A DNA stretch of 39,699 nt from an uncultured Myxococcales bacterium (GCA_903911905.1 CAIWFK010000012.1:1-39699), one strand, 5' to 3'; numbered from the stretch's first letter, positions 5,859-13,994 are shown. Notes: generated from the letters alone by a model not told the origin. Translations and numbers: made by a program.

Positions 5859-6920
5859 CTACAGCACGCCGCGCTTCTGCTGGTCGCGCTCGATGCTGCG
5901 GAAGAGGGCGCCGAAGTTGCCCTCGCCGAACGACGAGTGGTTCTTGCGCTGAATGAGTTCGATGAAGATGGGGCCCACCAGGTTCCTGGTGAAGATCTGC
6001 AGCAGGTAGCCCTGGTCGTCACCGTCGATGAGCACGTTGCGGCGCTTCACCTCGTCCTTGTCCTCCGTGATGCCGGGGAACTTCGCGAACACGTCTCGGT
6101 AGTACTGGTCGTCCATGTCGAGCATCTCGATGGGCGTGCCCTCGAGGTTCTTCAGCGACCCCAGAATGTCGTCGGTCAGGAAGGCCAGGTGCTGAATGCC
6201 CGGGCCCTGGTATTCCTCGAGGTACTCGTTGATTTGCGACTTGGCCTCGGTGCCCTCGTTGATGGGAATGCAGAAGAAGCCGCAGGGCGAGCGCAGCGCG
6301 TACGAGGTCAGGCCCGTCTTCGCGCCGCGAATGTCGAAGTAGCGCACCTCTTCGAAGCCGAAGACCGACTTGTAGAAGGCGGCCCAGGTCTGCATCGTGC
6401 CCTTGACGACGTTGTTCGTCAGGTGGTCGAGCACCGTGAAGCCCTTGCTGGGCACGAGGTTCGGCGTACGCGCGGGCGCGAAGCCCAGGCGCTGGTACAG
6501 GTCGTCGCTCTTCTCGACGAAGTAGATGAGGCTGTCGCCGATGCCGAAGATGGCCGGCACGGGCTTGCCGTCGATGAGGAAGTCACCCTCGGGACGGGGC
6601 TTCGCGCCGCGCGCCACCGCCGCCTCGAAGGCCTGCTTCGCGTTCTTCACCCGCCAGCCCATCGAGCAGATGCTGGGGCCGTGCAGCGCCGCGAAGCTGG
6701 CCGCGAACGAGCGCGACTCGCGGTTGACGAGGAAGGTGAGGTCGCCCTGGCGGTAGAGGTCGATGGGCCGGGTCGCCTGTTCCATGGTGCGCGAGAAGCC
6801 GAAGCCGGTGAACAGCGCGTCGAGCACCGCGGGCTTCGGCGAGACGAACTCGACGAACTCGAGGCCGGCCAGGCCGCAGGGGTTGTTCTTCGAGACGGGG
6901 AACTGGGGAGCGTGGGTCAT
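5859..6920 (-). CDS. hppD: 4-hydroxyphenylpyruvate dioxygenase
   Basis: A 353-residue non-haem Fe(II) enzyme that converts 4-hydroxyphenylpyruvate to homogentisate, the second step of tyrosine catabolism. The metal ligands appear as His in VLDHLTNN, His in IQHLAFLT and Glu in IFIELIQRK, giving the 2-His-1-carboxylate triad. The C-terminal signature NFGALFRSIERDQ is also typical of HPPD. The length is normal for bacteria. AGGA about 9 nt before the ATG supports the start. It lies 32 bp downstream of hmgA on the same strand, so the two are very likely co-transcribed, an order that supplies consecutive pathway steps. Confidence 0.97.
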   Translation of the reverse strand: MTHAPQFPVSKNNPCGLAGLEFVEFVSPKPAVLDALFTGFGFSRTMEQATRPIDLYRQGDLTFLVNRESRSFAASFAALHGPSICSMGWRVKNAKQAFEAAVARGAKPRPEGDFLIDGKPVPAIFGIGDSLIYFVEKSDDLYQRLGFAPARTPNLVPSKGFTVLDHLTNNVVKGTMQTWAAFYKSVFGFEEVRYFDIRGAKTGLTSYALRSPCGFFCIPINEGTEAKSQINEYLEEYQGPGIQHLAFLTDDILGSLKNLEGTPIEMLDMDDQYYRDVFAKFPGITEDKDEVKRRNVLIDGDDQGYLLQIFTRNLVGPIFIELIQRKNHSSFGEGNFGALFRSIERDQQKRGVL

Positions 6921-6952
6921 GGTCGGGTTCCTGTGAGAAAAGTGAAACGAGG

Positions 6953-8065
6953 TCAGGGGGTCAGCCAGCTCTTCCAGTACTCGGCCAATTCAGCCTTGCC
7001 GGCGCCAGGCAGCACGGTGAGCGGGTTCTTCGTGTCGAGCATCACCGCCACCTCTTCGGTGCGGGTCGCGGCCTTCGCGCGGTCGAACGCCCTGGCCTGC
7101 GGGCCGTGGTGAATGCCCTGCGGGTGGAAGGTGAGCATGCCGGGCGCGATGCCCGCGCGGCTGAAGAACTCGCCCGAGTGGTAGAAGAGCACTTCGTCGA
7201 AGTCGATGTTCGAATGGTAGAACGGCACCTTGAGCGCCACCGGGTCGCCGTTCTCGAGCGGCCGCGGCAGGAAGGTGCAGATCACCGCGTTGCGCATCAC
7301 GAAGGTCGAGTGCGCCGAGGGCGGCAGGTGGTAGCGGTCGCTCGAGACCGGGCGAATGTCGCGCACGTTGAGCTTGAGCGCGGCCAGGGTGCCCTTCCAA
7401 CCCACCACGTCGTGCGGGTTGAAGGGGTAGAAAATCGACGTCATCGCGCCCTGCTGCTTGACCTTGAGCTCGAATTCGCCGGCCGCGTTGGCGGTCAACG
7501 AGCTGGCCTCGGGGGAGGGCACCTGCACCACCGCCGGGTCGAAGAGCGCGTGCTGACCCAGCAGGCCCTTCTCGGGGAAGTTCACCTCGCTCGCGGCCTC
7601 GACCACCAGGAAGCGCGAGCTGCTGGTCGGCGAGAAGCGGTACGCGGTGCCGCGCGGCAACACCAGGTAGTCGCCCGGCTCGTACGCCAGCGGGCCGAAG
7701 TCGGTCTCGAGCCGGCCCGCGCCCGCGTGCACGAAGACGATCTCGTCGGCATCGGCGTTGCGGAAGAGGTACGGCATGAGGCGATCGAGCGTGGTCAGCG
7801 AGAGCACCACGTCGGCGTTGCCCAGCAGCCCCCGGCGCGCGCCCAGCCAGTCGTCACCGGCGGCGCCCGGCAGCTCGCGCAGGTCGTACGCGCGCGGCCT
7901 GAGCGGGCCTTCGATGCGGGTCCAGCCCACCGGCGCGTGCGTGCGGTAGAGGTGGGCGTAGCGCCCGAAGAACCCGTTGCGGGCATATTCCTCTTCCACC
8001 GTTCCGTCGGGGACGCCGACGTGCGCCTGCTGGGCGATGCGGCCGCGAATCCAGGGAATGTCCAT
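6953..8065 (-). CDS. hmgA: homogentisate 1,2-dioxygenase (short form)
   Basis: This cupin-type Fe(II) dioxygenase opens the ring of homogentisate to maleylacetoacetate. Iron-ligand candidates are His and Glu in FYHSGEFF and His in HPQGIHHGPQ near the C-terminus. An N-terminal cupin half has VFVHAGAGRLETDFGPL and YEPGDYLVLPRG. I start it at the ATG at 8063-8065 (370 residues, MDIPWIRGRI), because the in-frame upstream start at 8096-8098 is a TTG inside the palindromic operator region. Both starts give a protein shorter than the roughly 430-445 residues of proteobacterial or human HmgA. It is first in the hmgA-hppD operon and divergent from a LysR regulator. Maleylacetoacetate isomerase and fumarylacetoacetase genes are not in the window. 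Confidence 0.9.
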   Translation of the reverse strand: MDIPWIRGRIAQQAHVGVPDGTVEEEYARNGFFGRYAHLYRTHAPVGWTRIEGPLRPRAYDLRELPGAAGDDWLGARRGLLGNADVVLSLTTLDRLMPYLFRNADADEIVFVHAGAGRLETDFGPLAYEPGDYLVLPRGTAYRFSPTSSSRFLVVEAASEVNFPEKGLLGQHALFDPAVVQVPSPEASSLTANAAGEFELKVKQQGAMTSIFYPFNPHDVVGWKGTLAALKLNVRDIRPVSSDRYHLPPSAHSTFVMRNAVICTFLPRPLENGDPVALKVPFYHSNIDFDEVLFYHSGEFFSRAGIAPGMLTFHPQGIHHGPQARAFDRAKAATRTEEVAVMLDTKNPLTVLPGAGKAELAEYWKSWLTP

Positions 8066-8093
8066 GGGCTCGTTCGTAGGCGGGGTGACCTTC

Positions 8094-8143
8094 GTCAAGA
8101 AATTGACAAAGTGTGGTCAGTCATTGTGTATTCGTCGAACAAT
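8094..8143. promoter_or_regulatory. divergent promoter/operator of hmgA and its LysR regulator
   Basis: Three dyads sit in 50 bp. GTCAA-gaaa-TTGAC occupies 8094-8107, TGAC-N8-GTCA occupies 8104-8119 and ATTGT-N11-ACAAT occupies 8123-8143. The last is an exact T-N11-A LysR box whose right arm overlaps the regulator's ATG (8142-8144), suggesting autorepression. A plausible promoter for the regulator is TTGACA (8103-8108), an 18-nt spacer, then TGTATT (8127-8132), which would give a nearly leaderless transcript. The hmgA promoter must lie in the same stretch in the opposite direction. Confidence 0.65.
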
Positions 8144-9026
8144 GAACGTCACGCTCGAACAGGCCCGTGCGCTGGCCGCCTTCCACGCCGCTGGCACCCT
8201 GCAGGGCGCGGCGAAGGCGCTGCACCGCACCCACACCGCGGTGCTCTACGCGCTCAAGCAGCTCGAGACCCAGACCGGCCTCGACCTGTTCGACCGCTCC
8301 GGGTACCGCACCCGACTGACGCCCGCGGGCGACGAGGTGCTGCGGCGTTGCCGCTCGTTGCTCGAGGCCGAGCGCTCGCTGGTCGAGACCTGTCGTGAGC
8401 TCAAGAGCGGGTGGGAACCGGTGCTCACCGTGGTCTTCGACGCCATTCTGCCCCTGGGCCCCACGCTCGAGGTGGTGCAGGCGCTGCGCGACGCCGGTGC
8501 GCCCACCCGGCTCAGGCTGACCGTCGATTCGCTCGGTGGGGTCGAAGACCGCTTCGTGGCCGACGACGCCCAGGTGCTCATCAGCGTGTTGCCGGTGCGG
8601 CTCGAGGGGCTGACCGTCATCTCGTTGCCCCGGTTGCGCGCCCGGCTCGTCGCGCACCGCAGCCACCCGCTCTCGAAGCTGCGTACCGTCAGCCGCGCCG
8701 ACCTCGCCCAGCACGTGCTGTTGACGGTGCGCGGGTCGGACCCCCGCCTGCAGTTGTCGACCGCCCAGTTGGACGAGCAGTCCCACGTGCACCTGTCGGA
8801 CTTCCACGCCAAGAAGGCCGCCATTCTCGCCGGCATCGGCTTCGGGTGGCTGCCCGACTGGCTCATCGAGCGCGAAGTGAAGAACGGCGAGCTCAAGCCG
8901 CTCACGTTGCCCCAGGGCAGCGTGCACGCCTTCGAGCCCCGGCTGGCGCACCGCGGGCGACTGGGGCCGGCGGGCCGCCTGTTCCTCGAACGACTCACCG
9001 GTCGACCGAGCGCGAACCGCGGGTGA
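8142..9026 (+). CDS. LysR-type transcriptional regulator
   Basis: A 294-residue regulator. An N-terminal winged helix-turn-helix (about residues 1-62) contains FHAAGTLQGAAKALHRTHTAVLYALKQLE and ends with the typical LFDRSGYRTRLTPAGDEVL. A periplasmic-binding-like effector domain follows from about residue 90, with LLTVRGSDPRL and GIGFGWLPDWLIE matching the usual C-terminal subdomain. The start is the ATG at 8142, where similarity to the family begins. Longer in-frame starts would run into hmgA. Divergent placement and the T-N11-A box argue that it controls the hmgA-hppD pair, with a tyrosine-pathway intermediate as a possible effector. This last point is inference. Confidence 0.93.
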   Translation: MNVTLEQARALAAFHAAGTLQGAAKALHRTHTAVLYALKQLETQTGLDLFDRSGYRTRLTPAGDEVLRRCRSLLEAERSLVETCRELKSGWEPVLTVVFDAILPLGPTLEVVQALRDAGAPTRLRLTVDSLGGVEDRFVADDAQVLISVLPVRLEGLTVISLPRLRARLVAHRSHPLSKLRTVSRADLAQHVLLTVRGSDPRLQLSTAQLDEQSHVHLSDFHAKKAAILAGIGFGWLPDWLIEREVKNGELKPLTLPQGSVHAFEPRLAHRGRLGPAGRLFLERLTGRPSANRG

Positions 9027-9066: not shown

Positions 9067-9693
9067 GTGCCACGACTCGCCATTCTCGGTGCGACTGGAA
9101 AGCTGGGCGACAAGCTCATCACCCGCGCGCTCGACCAGGGGTATTCGGTCAACGCGCTCGCTCGTGACCCCCGGGCCATCAAGCGCCAGAACGAGCGGCT
9201 GACCGTCATTCCCGGTGACGCCGAGACGGGCGCGGGGCTCGACGCGCTGGTCGAGCGCTGTCAGTTCGTGGTCTGCGCCATCGGCTCGTTGCGGCCGGTG
9301 GTGGCGACCGCGATGGACAAGCTGCTGCCCCAGCTCGAAGCACTCAAGCGCTTCGAGCGCTTCGTGCTGATTTCCCGCCTGGGCACCGGCGAGAGCCGCG
9401 AACAGAGCGCCAAGGTCTCGGGCCCCATTCAGCAGCGCCTGCCGGTGATTCTGGGGCCGGTGTTCCGCGACATCAACCTGGCCGAAGAGCGCGTGCGCAC
9501 CAGCCGCGTGCCGTGGACCATTCTTCGCTCGACCCGTCTGACCGACGACCCGCCGACGGGCAAGGCGGTGGTGGTGGGCCCCCACGAGCCGCCTCCGCAC
9601 CGCATCACCCGCGCCGACCTCGCTCACTTCCTGGTCGACCTGCTCGACCAGCCCGGCCACGTCGGCGAAGAGCTCACCGTCGGGTCGCCATGA
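9067..9693 (+). CDS. NAD(P)-binding protein, NmrA/atypical SDR type
   Basis: A 208-residue protein beginning directly with a Rossmann nucleotide-binding motif, LAILGATGKLGDKLI (GxxGxxG). The body follows the NmrA/SDR-a5-like pattern: LTVIPGDAETGAGLDALVERCQFVVCAIGS, FERFVLISRLG, TRVPWTILRSTRL-like and a C-terminal RITRADLAHFLVDLLD. I chose the GTG at 9067 because it sits immediately before the first beta strand. A TTG at 9031 is an in-frame alternative. It lacks an obvious YxxxK catalytic pair, so it may be a redox sensor or binding protein and not a dehydrogenase. Its stop overlaps the next start (ATGA), so it is coupled to the beta-barrel gene. It follows the LysR gene after 40 bp. Confidence 0.82.
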   Translation: MPRLAILGATGKLGDKLITRALDQGYSVNALARDPRAIKRQNERLTVIPGDAETGAGLDALVERCQFVVCAIGSLRPVVATAMDKLLPQLEALKRFERFVLISRLGTGESREQSAKVSGPIQQRLPVILGPVFRDINLAEERVRTSRVPWTILRSTRLTDDPPTGKAVVVGPHEPPPHRITRADLAHFLVDLLDQPGHVGEELTVGSP

Positions 9694-10781
9694 CCCGCTG
9701 GTGGGTCGGGGCGCTGGTGCTGGCGGCGGCGAGTGCGCACGCCTTCGACGTGACGGCTGCGGGCTCGGCGGCGGTCGACTACCGCTACGTGTCGGGGCCC
9801 AACCCGCCCGAAAACCCCTCGACGCTGGGCATCACCGGGCTGACCTACGAGGTGGCGCAGAAGCTCGTCGCCGAGGTCGGCCATGGCGTCAGCTTCACGG
9901 TGAAGGCCTGCGCCGGGTGTCACGGCCTCGAGGTCGACCAGGGCTTCGGCGAAGTGCGGGTGAAGCGCTTCTTCAACGTGCGCGCCGGTCGGCTCAACCT
10001 GCCCTTCGGCGAGTTCAACCTGCGCCACGACCCCACCAACTTCACCACGCCCAGCAAGCCGCTGCCGTACGCCATGGGCGACATGCTCTGGTACGGACGC
10101 GAGGGCTTCAACCTGGGCATCGTACCCGCGCCCTTCGTCGACAACGGCGTCGAGGTCTACGGCAGCCTCTCGCTGAGCAAGAAGGTGCAGCTCGATTATT
10201 CGGCCTACGTGGTCAAGGGCCTGGTCGGAGACAACGACATCGACTGGGCGCGCTCGCGCAACTACCTCGACATCAACCGCACGCCGGCGGGCGGCGGTCG
10301 GGTGGTGCTCACCGGAGAAGACTGGGCGGTGGGCGCCTCGTTCACCGGCGGCACCTACGACCCGAAGGACACGCTGCATTACCTGATGGGCGGGCTCGAC
10401 CTCTACCTGCGCTTCGGGCCGGTGGTCTTCCGCGCCGAGGGCCTGGCACGTCGCACCGACCTCGACCCGACCGCCACCGGCTACGCCTACCAGGTCATCG
10501 ATTCCTGGTTCCTCAAGGTCGGGTGGTACGGGCAGGTCGACTGGGCCATCATTCCGCAGTTGACGCTGGTGCTGCGCAGCGACGGGTTGCAGCACTTCGG
10601 CCTGCCCATTCCCGAGAGTTCGATTCAGCCCAACGCGCGCGTGCTGCGCCAGACCGTGGCGCTCATGGGCCGGGTGAACGAGAACTTCGCCATCAAGGCC
10701 GACTACGAATTGTGGACGGTGACCGACGCGCCGTTCACCGCTCGACACCTGGCCCGCCTCGGCGTCGTGGTGGGGTACTGA
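9690..10781 (+). CDS. predicted outer-membrane beta-barrel with a haem-c motif
   Basis: A 363-residue exported protein. The signal peptide is MTRWWVGALVLAAASAHA. The remainder alternates hydrophobic and polar residues like a porin (for example VKRFFNVRAGRLNLPFGEF, LDLYLRFGPVVFRAEGLA and FAIKADYELWTV) and ends in VVVGY, with a terminal aromatic residue. I judge it a barrel of roughly 14-18 strands. Within the N-terminal part lies CAGCH (residues 74-78), a perfect c-type haem attachment motif, unusual for a porin. It overlaps the preceding gene by ATGA and is followed after one base by a two-haem cytochrome, so the three probably work together. Electron transfer across the outer membrane is possible. 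I do not recognise the exact family. Confidence 0.75.
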   Translation: MTRWWVGALVLAAASAHAFDVTAAGSAAVDYRYVSGPNPPENPSTLGITGLTYEVAQKLVAEVGHGVSFTVKACAGCHGLEVDQGFGEVRVKRFFNVRAGRLNLPFGEFNLRHDPTNFTTPSKPLPYAMGDMLWYGREGFNLGIVPAPFVDNGVEVYGSLSLSKKVQLDYSAYVVKGLVGDNDIDWARSRNYLDINRTPAGGGRVVLTGEDWAVGASFTGGTYDPKDTLHYLMGGLDLYLRFGPVVFRAEGLARRTDLDPTATGYAYQVIDSWFLKVGWYGQVDWAIIPQLTLVLRSDGLQHFGLPIPESSIQPNARVLRQTVALMGRVNENFAIKADYELWTVTDAPFTARHLARLGVVVGY

Positions 10782-10782
10782 C

Positions 10783-11394
10783 ATGCTCGCGCTCGTGCTC
10801 GCGCTCACCCTGGCCGCTCCTCCCAACGCCCGCCTGGCGTGGGAACGGAAGTGCCTGTACTGCCATTCCGAAGAGGTCGCCGAGGGCCACCGCTACACCG
10901 AGCCGCAGTGGCGCCGGGTGGTCGAGAAGATGCGTCTCAAGGCGCCGCTGCTCATCAGCAAGGCCGACGCGGTGCTGCTGACCCGCTACGCCACGCAGAC
11001 GCTGAAGCTGGTGCTGCCTCCGGCCCGGCCGACGCCCATGGTCGTCGCTCCGCTCAAGCCCGTCCCCGTCGACAAGCCGCCTGCCGACGAGCTCAAGACG
11101 CCGGTGATGACCGACCTGCCTGCCGACCTGCCTGCCGACCTGCCGCCCGAGCTTCCTCCGACGCCGCCCGACGACTCGCTGCGCACCAATGCCGACGACG
11201 AGCTCGACCAGCAGGCCACCGCGCTCATTCAGGCGCGCTGCTCGAAGTGTCACGCGCTGGGTCGGGTGTACGGGCGACTCGACACCTACGAGCGTTCGCT
11301 GACCACGCTCGAGCGCATGCGCCTGAAGACCGGCTCGGGCATCACCGACGACGACCTGGCCGTGCTCGAGCGGTACCTGCGCGCGCAGTTCTAG
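10783..11394 (+). CDS. exported cytochrome with two CXXCH motifs
   Basis: A 203-residue protein with a short signal peptide (MLALVLALTLAAPPNA). Two haem-binding modules flank a Pro/Asp-rich linker. The first has CLYCH near residue 24 and the second CSKCH near residue 152. Each is followed about 30-40 residues later by a Met that could be the axial ligand (VEKMRLKAP and LERMRLKTG), so the protein looks like an internal duplication. The linker (about 78-135) repeats LPADLPADLPPELPP. It would be periplasmic or attached to the neighbouring barrel. It begins one base after the barrel gene's stop. The terminal partners of the electron path are not visible. Confidence 0.83.
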   Translation: MLALVLALTLAAPPNARLAWERKCLYCHSEEVAEGHRYTEPQWRRVVEKMRLKAPLLISKADAVLLTRYATQTLKLVLPPARPTPMVVAPLKPVPVDKPPADELKTPVMTDLPADLPADLPPELPPTPPDDSLRTNADDELDQQATALIQARCSKCHALGRVYGRLDTYERSLTTLERMRLKTGSGITDDDLAVLERYLRAQF

Positions 11395-11475: not shown

Positions 11476-13293
11476 TCACAGGCAGCAGCGCAACCCCAGG
11501 TGGCTCGACCCGCCGCCGCCAGGCATCAGGTAGTCGCGGGAATCACACGGCAGCCGCGCGTCACTCTGGTCGAACGAGCCGCCGCGAATCACCCGTTGCA
11601 GCGCGCCTTCCTGCAGGGGCGAACTGGTCCACTCGGCGACGTTGCCCACCAGGTCGAACACGCCGTTCTCACCCACGCACTTCGGCCGTGAGCCCGAGGC
11701 CGCCGGCCCCTTCACCCGCGGCCCCTTGATGACGCAGCGGTCGCGCTCGAGCTTCTTGCCCCACGGGTACGCGTCGCCTGCGCTGCCTTTGCATGCCGCT
11801 TCCCATTCCTGCTCGGTGCACAGCCGCTTGCCCGCGCCGGCGCACAGCGATTCGGCCTCGGCGAAGTCGACGTTGGTGATGGGCATGGCCCCCGCGCGGT
11901 TGGGGTACTCGTAGCGGTCGATGAAGACCTGGCCGACCCGCACCATGCCGTTGTGATGCGCGTACGAGGTGCGTTTGACCTCGGCCTGCAGCGGGTCGTC
12001 CTTCTCGAGCGTGCCCAGCTTCTCGAGCAGGGCCACCTGCGCCAGGGCGCCAGCGTCGTCGTCCTTCTTGAGCGCGGTCTGCAGGCTCAGCCGCAGCGTC
12101 GCCGAGAGCTGCGCCGTCAGCGCGACCCACTCGGGCCGCTCGGGGAAGGCCTTCTTCGCGGCCAGCAGCGCGTCGACCGCCAGCTCGGCAGGGCCAGCCA
12201 GCAACTGCTCGACCTCGGCGGCCTTCTTCTTCGCCGCCACGCTCACCGGGTCTTCGACCACCGGCGCCACCACTGGCGTGACCACCGGGGCCGGCCGCAG
12301 CGCGAGGAAGGCCACCACCGCGACCGCCACCGCCGCCAACACCCCCACCGTCACGGTGCGGGTCAGCCGGGCCTTGGCCGAGGTCAGGTGGGCCCTCACC
12401 GCCAGCAACTGGGTGCGCACCGCCGCCGCCGACGGCGGGCGACGCAGCGGCTCGATGGCCATCAGGTTCTGAATCAGCTCGTCCAGCTCGGCCGGTACGT
12501 CGGGCCGCAGCGTCCGCACACTGGGGCGAGGCTGTTCGCGATGCAGCCGCAACACCTCGTTCCAGTCGGACGCCACGAAGGGCAACTGACCCGACAGCAG
12601 CTCGAACATCATGCAGCCCATGGCGTAGAGGTCGGCCTTGGCCCCCACGTTCACGTTCGCGGCCTGCTCGGGCGAGACGTACCCCGCCGTGCCCAGCGCG
12701 TCGGGCGAGCCGGTGACGATGCGCGCGGCGATGCCGAAGTCGAGCAGCTTGGGAAAGGGCGCCCGGCTCGCGCGCTGCACCACGAAGACGTTGGCCGGCT
12801 TGAGGTCGCGGTGCACGAAGCCCGCGGCGTGGGCGGCCTCGAGCGCCTGGAAGAGCGGCACCATCAGGTCGATGACGTCGAGCAGCGGCAACGTCTTCTC
12901 GCGCATCAGCCGGTCTTCGAGCAGCTCGCCTTCCAGCAGCTCCATCACCAGCCACGAGCGGCCGTCGGGCAGGGTGCCGAAGCCATAGACGTCGACGATG
13001 CCTTCGTCGCCGATGGCGTTGACCGCCCGCGCTTCGGCCAGCAGCGTGGGCAGGTTGGGGTCGTTGCTGAGGTGCGGGTGCACCACCTTGAGCGCGGCGC
13101 GCTTGCCGATGGTCTCTTCGAGCGTCTCGTACACCGCGCCCATGCCGCCCACGCCCACCCGCTTGATGACCCGCCAGGTGCCGACCAGCTCGCCCACCAG
13201 CGGGTCGTCGGCCGCGGCCACCAGAATGGTGCCGTCGTTGCGGCACACCACCGCCCCGGGCAGGGCTCGGGCGGCACAGGCCGGGCACAGCAC
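11476..13293 (-). CDS. transmembrane Ser/Thr kinase fused to an FGE-like domain
   Basis: A 605-residue protein. A small CPAC...C zinc-ribbon-like start is followed by a eukaryotic-type kinase: glycine loop GVGGMGAVY (47-55), Lys69 in ALKVV, catalytic HRDLKPANVF (161-170) and DFG (185-187), so it should be active. One membrane helix (about 314-333) leads to a linker and a C-terminal FGE/SUMF1-like domain (about 455-605) with DRYEYPNRAGAMPITNV, ICTEQEWEAAC-like, NVAEWTSS and RGGSF. The Cys pair used for catalysis in true formylglycine-generating enzymes is not evident, so the domain may be a binding module. The GTG at 13293 is the only good start after the upstream stop. It is last in an operon behind a blue-copper lipoprotein. 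Confidence 0.88.
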   Translation of the reverse strand: MLCPACAARALPGAVVCRNDGTILVAAADDPLVGELVGTWRVIKRVGVGGMGAVYETLEETIGKRAALKVVHPHLSNDPNLPTLLAEARAVNAIGDEGIVDVYGFGTLPDGRSWLVMELLEGELLEDRLMREKTLPLLDVIDLMVPLFQALEAAHAAGFVHRDLKPANVFVVQRASRAPFPKLLDFGIAARIVTGSPDALGTAGYVSPEQAANVNVGAKADLYAMGCMMFELLSGQLPFVASDWNEVLRLHREQPRPSVRTLRPDVPAELDELIQNLMAIEPLRRPPSAAAVRTQLLAVRAHLTSAKARLTRTVTVGVLAAVAVAVVAFLALRPAPVVTPVVAPVVEDPVSVAAKKKAAEVEQLLAGPAELAVDALLAAKKAFPERPEWVALTAQLSATLRLSLQTALKKDDDAGALAQVALLEKLGTLEKDDPLQAEVKRTSYAHHNGMVRVGQVFIDRYEYPNRAGAMPITNVDFAEAESLCAGAGKRLCTEQEWEAACKGSAGDAYPWGKKLERDRCVIKGPRVKGPAASGSRPKCVGENGVFDLVGNVAEWTSSPLQEGALQRVIRGGSFDQSDARLPCDSRDYLMPGGGGSSHLGLRCCL

Positions 13294-13310
13294 ACTGGTC
13301 GACGAAACGC

Positions 13311-13994
13311 TCAGGGCACGACCTCGATGGCGCCGGCCATGCCCGACCCGTCGGGCCCACCGTGCTGGTTGCAATAGTACCCAAAGAGGCCCAGCGCGTC
13401 GGTGAAGGTGACCGACCAGGTGTTGCCGAAGTGCGAGGTGACGACGTTGCGCACCGGCCCACACGACTGGTCGAGCGGGTGCGACCCGAAGTCGCCCGAG
13501 AAGGTCAGCGTCTGCCCCAGGCGGACCTTCACGCACGCGGGGCTGTAGTTCAGGCCGCCCACGGGGAAGCGAATGGTGGGGCTGGCCGCGCCGGTCAGGT
13601 CATCGAAGGTCGTGCACCTGGCGAAGGCCGGTCGACACGCGGTGGCGGCAGCCGTGCAGTGCGAGCCGATACACACGCCGCTGGCACAGTCGGTCGGCGC
13701 CGTGCAGGTCGCTCCGAGCGTACAGGCCGGGCAGGTCGGCCCGCCGCAATCGACCGCGGTCTCGGTTCCATCGAGTACGCCGTTGGTGCAACTGGCGCCG
13801 CCGCCGGCGGCCGTGCCTCCGCCGGTCGTCGTACCTCCGCCGGTCGTCGTACCTCCGCCGGTCGTCGTACCTCCGCCGGTACCACCGCCCGTGGCTGCAC
13901 CGCCTCCGGTCGCTTCGATCGGGGGGCCCACCTGGGGCAGGCACGCCGCGAGGAAGATCAGGCTGACGACCGCGAAACGCATTCGAACCGTCAT
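13311..13994 (-). CDS. lipoprotein with a blue-copper (cupredoxin) domain
   Basis: A 227-residue protein whose signal peptide ends in FLAAC, so it is lipidated at about Cys18. A Gly/Thr-rich linker of GGGTTT repeats follows, then a Cys-rich segment with the pattern NGVxDGxETxVDCGG common in myxobacterial surface proteins, then a cupredoxin-like domain (about 140-227). Type-1 copper ligands are likely His in DFGSHPLD, Cys and His in YYCNQH and Met in GSGMAG, which match the plastocyanin arrangement. It should sit on the outside of a membrane and carry electrons or bind copper. It is 17 nt upstream of the kinase-FGE gene and 25 nt downstream of the WGR/HEAT gene. Confidence 0.85.
   Translation of the reverse strand: MTVRMRFAVVSLIFLAACLPQVGPPIEATGGGAATGGGTGGGTTTGGGTTTGGGTTTGGGTAAGGGASCTNGVLDGTETAVDCGGPTCPACTLGATCTAPTDCASGVCIGSHCTAAATACRPAFARCTTFDDLTGAASPTIRFPVGGLNYSPACVKVRLGQTLTFSGDFGSHPLDQSCGPVRNVVTSHFGNTWSVTFTDALGLFGYYCNQHGGPDGSGMAGAIEVVP
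13816..13881. repeat. 18-bp tandem repeat coding the lipoprotein linker
   Basis: Three identical 18-bp units (13816-13869, beginning CCTCCGCCGG on the + strand) plus a partial fourth encode the repeated GGGTTT hexapeptide on the opposite strand. The unit number keeps frame, so length variation between strains is expected. It is a coding low-complexity repeat. Confidence 0.85.

Follow-up and report, generated by a model that had tools for sequence, protein, structure and literature searches.

We identified in the Myxococcota a family of exported outer-membrane porins that carry an invariant c-type haem motif within the barrel and are accompanied by a small c-type cytochrome. One such pair lies in the window, by which we mean the whole 39,699-nt stretch analysed here, from an uncultured Myxococcales bacterium (GCA_903911905.1 CAIWFK010000012.1:1-39699). 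We lean slightly towards the view that the haem-bearing porin and its dedicated cytochrome form a short outer-membrane electron relay resembling that of Cyc2. The known outer-membrane electron routes either hold a multihaem wire in a haem-free barrel (Mtr/Pcc) or fuse a haem domain ahead of the barrel (Cyc2). If our reading is right, placing the haem in an extracellular hairpin of the barrel itself would add a third layout, and with it a hitherto undescribed kind of electrical contact between bacteria and their surroundings. It would also raise a question of assembly, namely how a barrel that already bears haem is folded and how its haem loop is moved across the membrane. The porin family occurs in complete genomes and is hence amenable to genetic testing.

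The haem motif of the porin family

The porin gene runs from an ATG at 9,690 to a TGA ending at 10,781 on the plus strand and encodes an exported protein of 363 residues. The open reading frame, AlphaFold, Foldseek and 28 homologues indicate a signal peptide followed by a 16-strand outer-membrane barrel with an OprP/OmpF-type fold. Its CAGCH haem-c motif occupies residues 74-78 (9,909-9,923, plus strand). One base separates the porin from the next gene on the same strand (ATG at 10,783 to a stop ending at 11,394), which encodes an exported dihaem cytochrome c of 203 residues. A Pro-rich linker connects the two class-I-like domains of this protein, which are homologous to each other and hold the haem sites CLYCH at 10,852-10,866 and CSKCH at 11,239-11,253 (both plus strand). 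A preliminary description of this DNA had proposed just such a barrel, and the reading frame, the Pfam relatives and the 16-strand model agree with it; the coordinates likewise bear out what it said of the exported neighbour and its two sites.

Searching the phylum Myxococcota in depth (195 genomes), we found the porin in 28 genomes, as 28 full-length sequences from 27 of them and as fragments of two paralogues in the other (G147). Full-length members scored 467-613 bits against the alignment profile and the next match, in genome G010, scored 97 bits and lacked the motif, a gap that makes the family boundary clean. Within this boundary CXXCHG is unchanged in 28/28 full-length homologues (C74, C77, H78 and G79 of the window porin), at identities to the window porin as low as 34%. 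When the fragments are counted with the full-length sequences, 27 of 30 have no further cysteine beyond the signal peptide. All inspected matches under the gap, at 97 bits or less, are without CXXCH. Barrel homologues devoid of the motif, which the preliminary description had named as a refutation, are thus confined to remote relatives, and the idea passes this check. This pattern indicates that the haem motif of the porin is beyond chance. Conserved throughout in an exported protein with a signal peptide-like N-terminus, it has at the sequence level the character of a c-type haem site.

Annotation of the porin by other routes was less informative. The window porin has no match in Pfam or NCBIfam, and only some of its relatives match Pfam porin models (Porin_4, Porin_O_P and SlpA_C), weakly. 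Compared by sequence with solved structures, the stretch across the CXXCH gave only chance-level cytochrome matches. A search of a plasmid collection returned a single, meaningless match, and one genome-contig scan returned close myxobacterial relatives only.

Barrel fold and modelled place of the motif

AlphaFold2, run with the family alignment on two members and modelling the protein without haem, returned 16 strands both for the window porin (pLDDT 83.5, pTM 0.80) and for an Anaeromyxobacter-type relative (pLDDT 85.1, pTM 0.82). Foldseek matched the porin to OprO, OprP, OmpF, OmpT and Omp32, all of them 16-strand porins, and a viral fold library yielded generic porin matches only. The hallmarks of the general and specific porin fold are all present, namely 16 strands, short periplasmic turns and a long loop L3. 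In the window porin model, the short turns at 65-66 and 93-94 mark the periplasmic side, and L3 comprises residues 104-149. Strands 20-34 and 51-64 come before the CXXCH, so the motif sits within the barrel, where it is modelled at the tip of the hairpin formed by beta3 (67-77) and beta4 (79-92), that is, in loop L2 at the extracellular end. The second model agrees, with C85-H89 at the hairpin tip and strands 78-87 and 90-103 on either side of it. The trimeric porins of the OprO/OprP and OmpF types share the 16-strand fold with its L3 constriction loop, but the place of their loop L2 is taken in the haem porin by the CXXCH hairpin tip, and we know of no c-type haem in these porins.

Both models contradict the preliminary description on one point, as it had expected the motif on the periplasmic side. 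Cytochrome c maturation attaches haem c to the chain while it is still unfolded in the periplasm, ahead of barrel insertion, so an extracellular position of the motif is in itself compatible with haem attachment and a weak argument against it. The hydrophobic alternation of beta3 points its odd residues towards the lipid, and K72 and C74 should for this reason face the lumen. Because Met129 of the constriction loop L3 (codon 10,074-10,076, plus strand) is invariant in 28/28 porins and no second histidine is, ligation of the haem by H78 and Met129 would be the natural hypothesis, with Met129 as the candidate sixth ligand.

The CXXCH of cytochromes c is normally helical, and the fact that both porin models show it in a beta-hairpin would suit a disulphide or metal site used in assembly instead of a haem site, since outer-membrane proteins may bear stabilising disulphides. 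We regard this explanation as very improbable: His78 and Gly79 vary no more than the cysteines do, a disulphide needs no histidine, and c-type cytochromes are constantly found alongside the porin.

Judging from strand length, we estimate that the porin haem would lie about 20 angstroms or more from a periplasmic haem. Such a distance is too far for fast direct tunnelling and would require an intermediate, either aromatic residues or a cytochrome entering the mouth of the barrel. With one haem at the outer rim, far from the periplasm, the porin and cytochrome alone would not make a continuous wire. The minimal electron route first proposed is therefore supported in part only, given that one haem by itself is too short to bridge the membrane.

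The partner cytochrome and clade-specific neighbours

We detected a homologous cytochrome with one or two haems in the cluster of every full-length porin, directly adjacent to it in 26 of 28 cases, which extends the gene pair to other myxobacteria. The two non-adjacent cases are L048, where a kinase gene intervenes, and one of the G041 paralogues, whose cytochrome lies 7 kb off in the same cluster. The form and position of the partner follow the porin clades. In clade A, to which the window belongs, a dihaem partner lies downstream of the porin. The other two clades have a monohaem partner, located downstream in clade B, which comprises Anaeromyxobacteraceae together with some relatives of the window organism, and upstream in clade C (family f17). 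Retention of the pair despite this changed gene order argues for joint function. In a reciprocal search, the full-length dihaem cytochrome occurred in exactly 7 genomes, each with an adjacent clade A porin, and the strong monohaem matches of the reverse search all fell at porin loci or in a related cluster in G010. The haem porin is thus obligately paired with the small cytochrome. A mirror-tree comparison of the two proteins gave r 0.90, a value that we do not count as strong evidence because each of them tracks the species tree.

The cytochromes of the different clades are homologous. Within the dihaem form, one half aligns with the other, and its second haem domain, which holds CSKCH in the window, aligns with the monohaem partner of the other clades through a shared CxKCH (C-x-[KR]-C-H) and a conserved [RK]-M segment after it. 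The first site, CLYCH, is kept in 7/7 dihaem homologues. Pfam cytochrome c551/CBB3 matches of the window cytochrome fall below the cut-off, and the nearest solved relatives of its C-terminal domain are the photosystem P840 cytochrome c551 and cytochrome c domains of PDB entries 3a9f and 7uea (chain C). Unlike P840 cytochrome c551, the partner is a small protein, soluble or lipid-anchored, that is tied to a porin and has no photosystem.

Two genomes hold more than one porin. Contigs C351, C185 and C306 of G147 carry fragments of a clade A porin and a clade B porin, and contig C117 of G041 carries two clade B porins, so the porin types are paralogues able to coexist.

In the window, an NmrA-like NAD(P)-binding protein (9,067-9,693, plus strand, GTG to TGA; Pfam NAD_binding_10, E 1e-33) precedes the porin and overlaps its start by ATGA. 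The preliminary description had pointed to this coupling, and although the overlap itself is real, the gene lies immediately upstream of the porin in 5/7 complete clade A loci and in no other clade; we therefore rejected it as a core component. Farther upstream, 4-hydroxyphenylpyruvate dioxygenase and homogentisate dioxygenase-like genes on the minus strand and a divergent LysR regulator on the plus strand form an ordinary tyrosine catabolism unit (5,859-9,026) that stops just short of the NAD(P)-binding, porin and cytochrome genes. On the other side, convergent with the cytochrome, are two minus-strand genes. The first (11,476-13,536) encodes a fusion of a Ser/Thr protein kinase with an FGE-sulfatase (sulfatase-modifying factor) domain and is found at 7/7 clade A loci. 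The second (13,311-13,994) encodes a cupredoxin lipoprotein with a type-1 copper ligand pattern (H...CxxH...M) and a Gly/Thr-rich linker, kept on 6/6 clade A contigs of sufficient length; its match to PF00127 (E 0.0011) is slightly below the cut-off, and it is a possible electron partner.

Clade B has redox neighbours of its own. Directly upstream of the porin, 19/19 loci (L042-L063, L069) encode a small predicted lipoprotein with an invariant CX4CH. A relative of this lipoprotein in G010 has a regular CGACH, which supports the view that CX4CH is probably a true haem site. Further out, ten loci carry a lipoprotein with an EB_dh haem domain (PF09459) and/or, in eight loci, an MtrC-type decahaem gene, which in these eight Anaeromyxobacteraceae loci lies within 9 kb of the porin; none lies near the window porin. 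The module first described as minimal is not so everywhere, since Anaeromyxobacteraceae add the CX4CH lipoprotein and EB_dh and/or decahaem proteins. Downstream of the monohaem gene, loci L043-L060 of the Anaeromyxobacteraceae encode a SpoIIE phosphatase, an RsbW-like kinase (ATPase) and a STAS protein, so that a partner-switching set adjoins the outer-membrane redox module in this family.

The signalling genes that follow the pair in clade B would fit a different role for the porin, as a redox-gated or haem-plugged channel. Here a Met129-ligated haem would gate the pore or sense redox state, and the cytochrome would merely set its oxidation state. The classic diffusion-porin fold with its full L3 loop, the lumen-facing C74 on beta3 and the invariant Met129 in L3 are all consistent with such a gate. 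We nonetheless consider it unlikely, as it leaves the extra haem lipoproteins, the MtrC-type decahaem and the cupredoxin neighbours unexplained.

A related cluster in G010 (L061; G010:C27:108000-124000) encodes a porin relative without CXXCH, in which a single cysteine is left at the first cysteine position. It is flanked by a tetrahaem cytochrome, the CXXCH lipoprotein, an MtrC-type decahaem protein and a monohaem cytochrome of the partner family. The arrangement suggests an ancestral or alternative version with more haems outside the barrel, and the occurrence of a motif-less porin in so similar a cluster implies that the barrel haem is dispensable in some related systems.

Relation to known conduits and a proposed relay

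The preliminary description compared the pair with Mtr/Pcc conduits only. The difference it drew holds, but the closest known system is Cyc2, which it did not mention. Cyc2 and Cyc572, the fused cytochrome-porins of Fe(II) oxidisers, also combine a 16-strand porin-like barrel and a single c-type motif in one polypeptide, and Cyc2 likewise has periplasmic cytochrome partners (PMC8406198, PMC10654088). Clade A further resembles the cyc2-cyc1-cup...rus arrangement in having a dihaem cytochrome and a copper protein nearby (PMC10654088). The haem of Cyc2, however, is in an N-terminal domain ahead of the barrel and is predicted to be periplasmic, whereas in the window porin two strands precede the motif, which is modelled at the extracellular tip of a hairpin. 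Two sequence signatures mark Cyc2, AXPXFAR[QK][TY] upstream of the CXXCH and PXL four residues past it (PMC8406198), and both are present in 0/28 porins. The length expected of Cyc2 is at least 365 aa; the window porin, with 363 aa, and its relatives, with about 360-396, lie at this limit. We rejected membership of Cyc2 on the missing signatures and on a haem motif within the barrel instead of at the N-terminus, and by analogy regard Cyc2 as the closest functional counterpart of the haem porin.

The single-haem porin Cyc2 has been proposed to meet Fe(II) in its pore (PMC8406198), which offers a precedent for catalytic use of the porin haem. On this account a surface-side haem would react with a small molecule (Fe(II), peroxide, NO or another) in the pore, with the cytochrome as electron partner and no long-range conduit. 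The lone haem motif close to the extracellular mouth in both models agrees with it, as does the resemblance of the window clade's dihaem cytochrome and cupredoxin to cyc2-cyc1-cup...rus (PMC10654088). We think it distinctly unlikely, since we found no catalytic residues and clade B is linked to surface cytochromes typical of electron export; it also overlaps the relay, from which it differs only in the identity of the external partner.

The Mtr/Mto/Pio and Pcc systems share with the haem porin the joint encoding of a barrel and a c-type cytochrome and, in some relatives, an MtrC-type surface decahaem, and Pcc-type clusters have been described for three Anaeromyxobacter strains (PMC4245776). 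Their barrels are haem-free, larger (~26 strands) and enclose a multihaem wire, whereas the haem porin has 16 strands, the size of a general porin, and the conserved motif in the porin itself; their periplasmic cytochromes have 8-14 haems, against 1-2 in the obligate partner here. MtrB_PioB (PF11854) is absent from all porin genomes and had one match in the phylum (G156). We rejected membership of Mtr/Pcc on this lack of MtrB homology in porin genomes and on the 1-2 haems of the partner, in keeping with the contrast to haem-free barrels that had been drawn at the outset. The porin-plus-cytochrome neighbourhood and the MtrC-like decahaem close to the porin in several loci could still recall a diverged Mtr/Pcc conduit, a sheath around a multihaem cytochrome; strand number, haem number and the missing MtrB_PioB make this extremely improbable. 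Neither the pair nor a haem motif in the hairpin of a porin was described in the literature covered, which was open-access with few subscription papers. We file the haem porin and its cytochrome as a variant of the cytochrome-porin idea, outside both Cyc2 and Mtr/Pcc.

In the relay that we favour, haem c would be joined in the periplasm to C74 and C77 of the unfolded porin, which would then insert as a 16-strand barrel with its haem at the beta3-beta4 hairpin tip, on the outer rim of the pore. The axial ligands would probably be H78 and, from loop L3, Met129. The partner cytochrome would dock on the periplasmic side and exchange electrons with the porin haem. Additional carriers may be supplied by the neighbouring genes, in Anaeromyxobacteraceae the CX4CH monohaem lipoprotein with the EB_dh haem lipoprotein and/or the MtrC-type decahaem, and in the window's clade the cupredoxin lipoprotein. 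We can infer direction and substrate from the neighbourhood only in outline: the decahaem neighbours of clade B suggest electron export, and the dihaem cytochrome and cupredoxin of clade A are reminiscent of the Cyc2-rusticyanin-Cyc1 chain, which runs inward (PMC10654088). That no surface cytochrome gene is adjacent at the window's own locus speaks against the relay.

More tentatively, and with rather less than even confidence, we suggest that these porins represent a class of conduit that evolved separately from Cyc2 and from Mtr/Pcc and is found in Anaeromyxobacter, a model metal reducer, too. Its haem would be carried in the barrel wall at the extracellular end and be ligated by L3 across the lumen, and transfer would be stepwise among single-haem proteins on both faces of the membrane. 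The inside partner would be the periplasmic cytochrome, and the further partners haem lipoproteins, a decahaem or a cupredoxin.

OmcA/MtrC decahaem genes above the curated cut-off were present in 26/28 porin genomes and in 28/167 others; the genomes are related, so that a formal P value overstates the association and the counts are indicative only. The window's genome has OmcA/MtrC-type genes on contigs C877 and C342, together with a cytochrome c assembly protein. On the latter contig we also observed a dense cluster of 23-, 3-, 10-, 12- and 12-haem proteins (L102; G000:C342:18000-30585), which probably constitutes an extracellular electron transfer system of its own.
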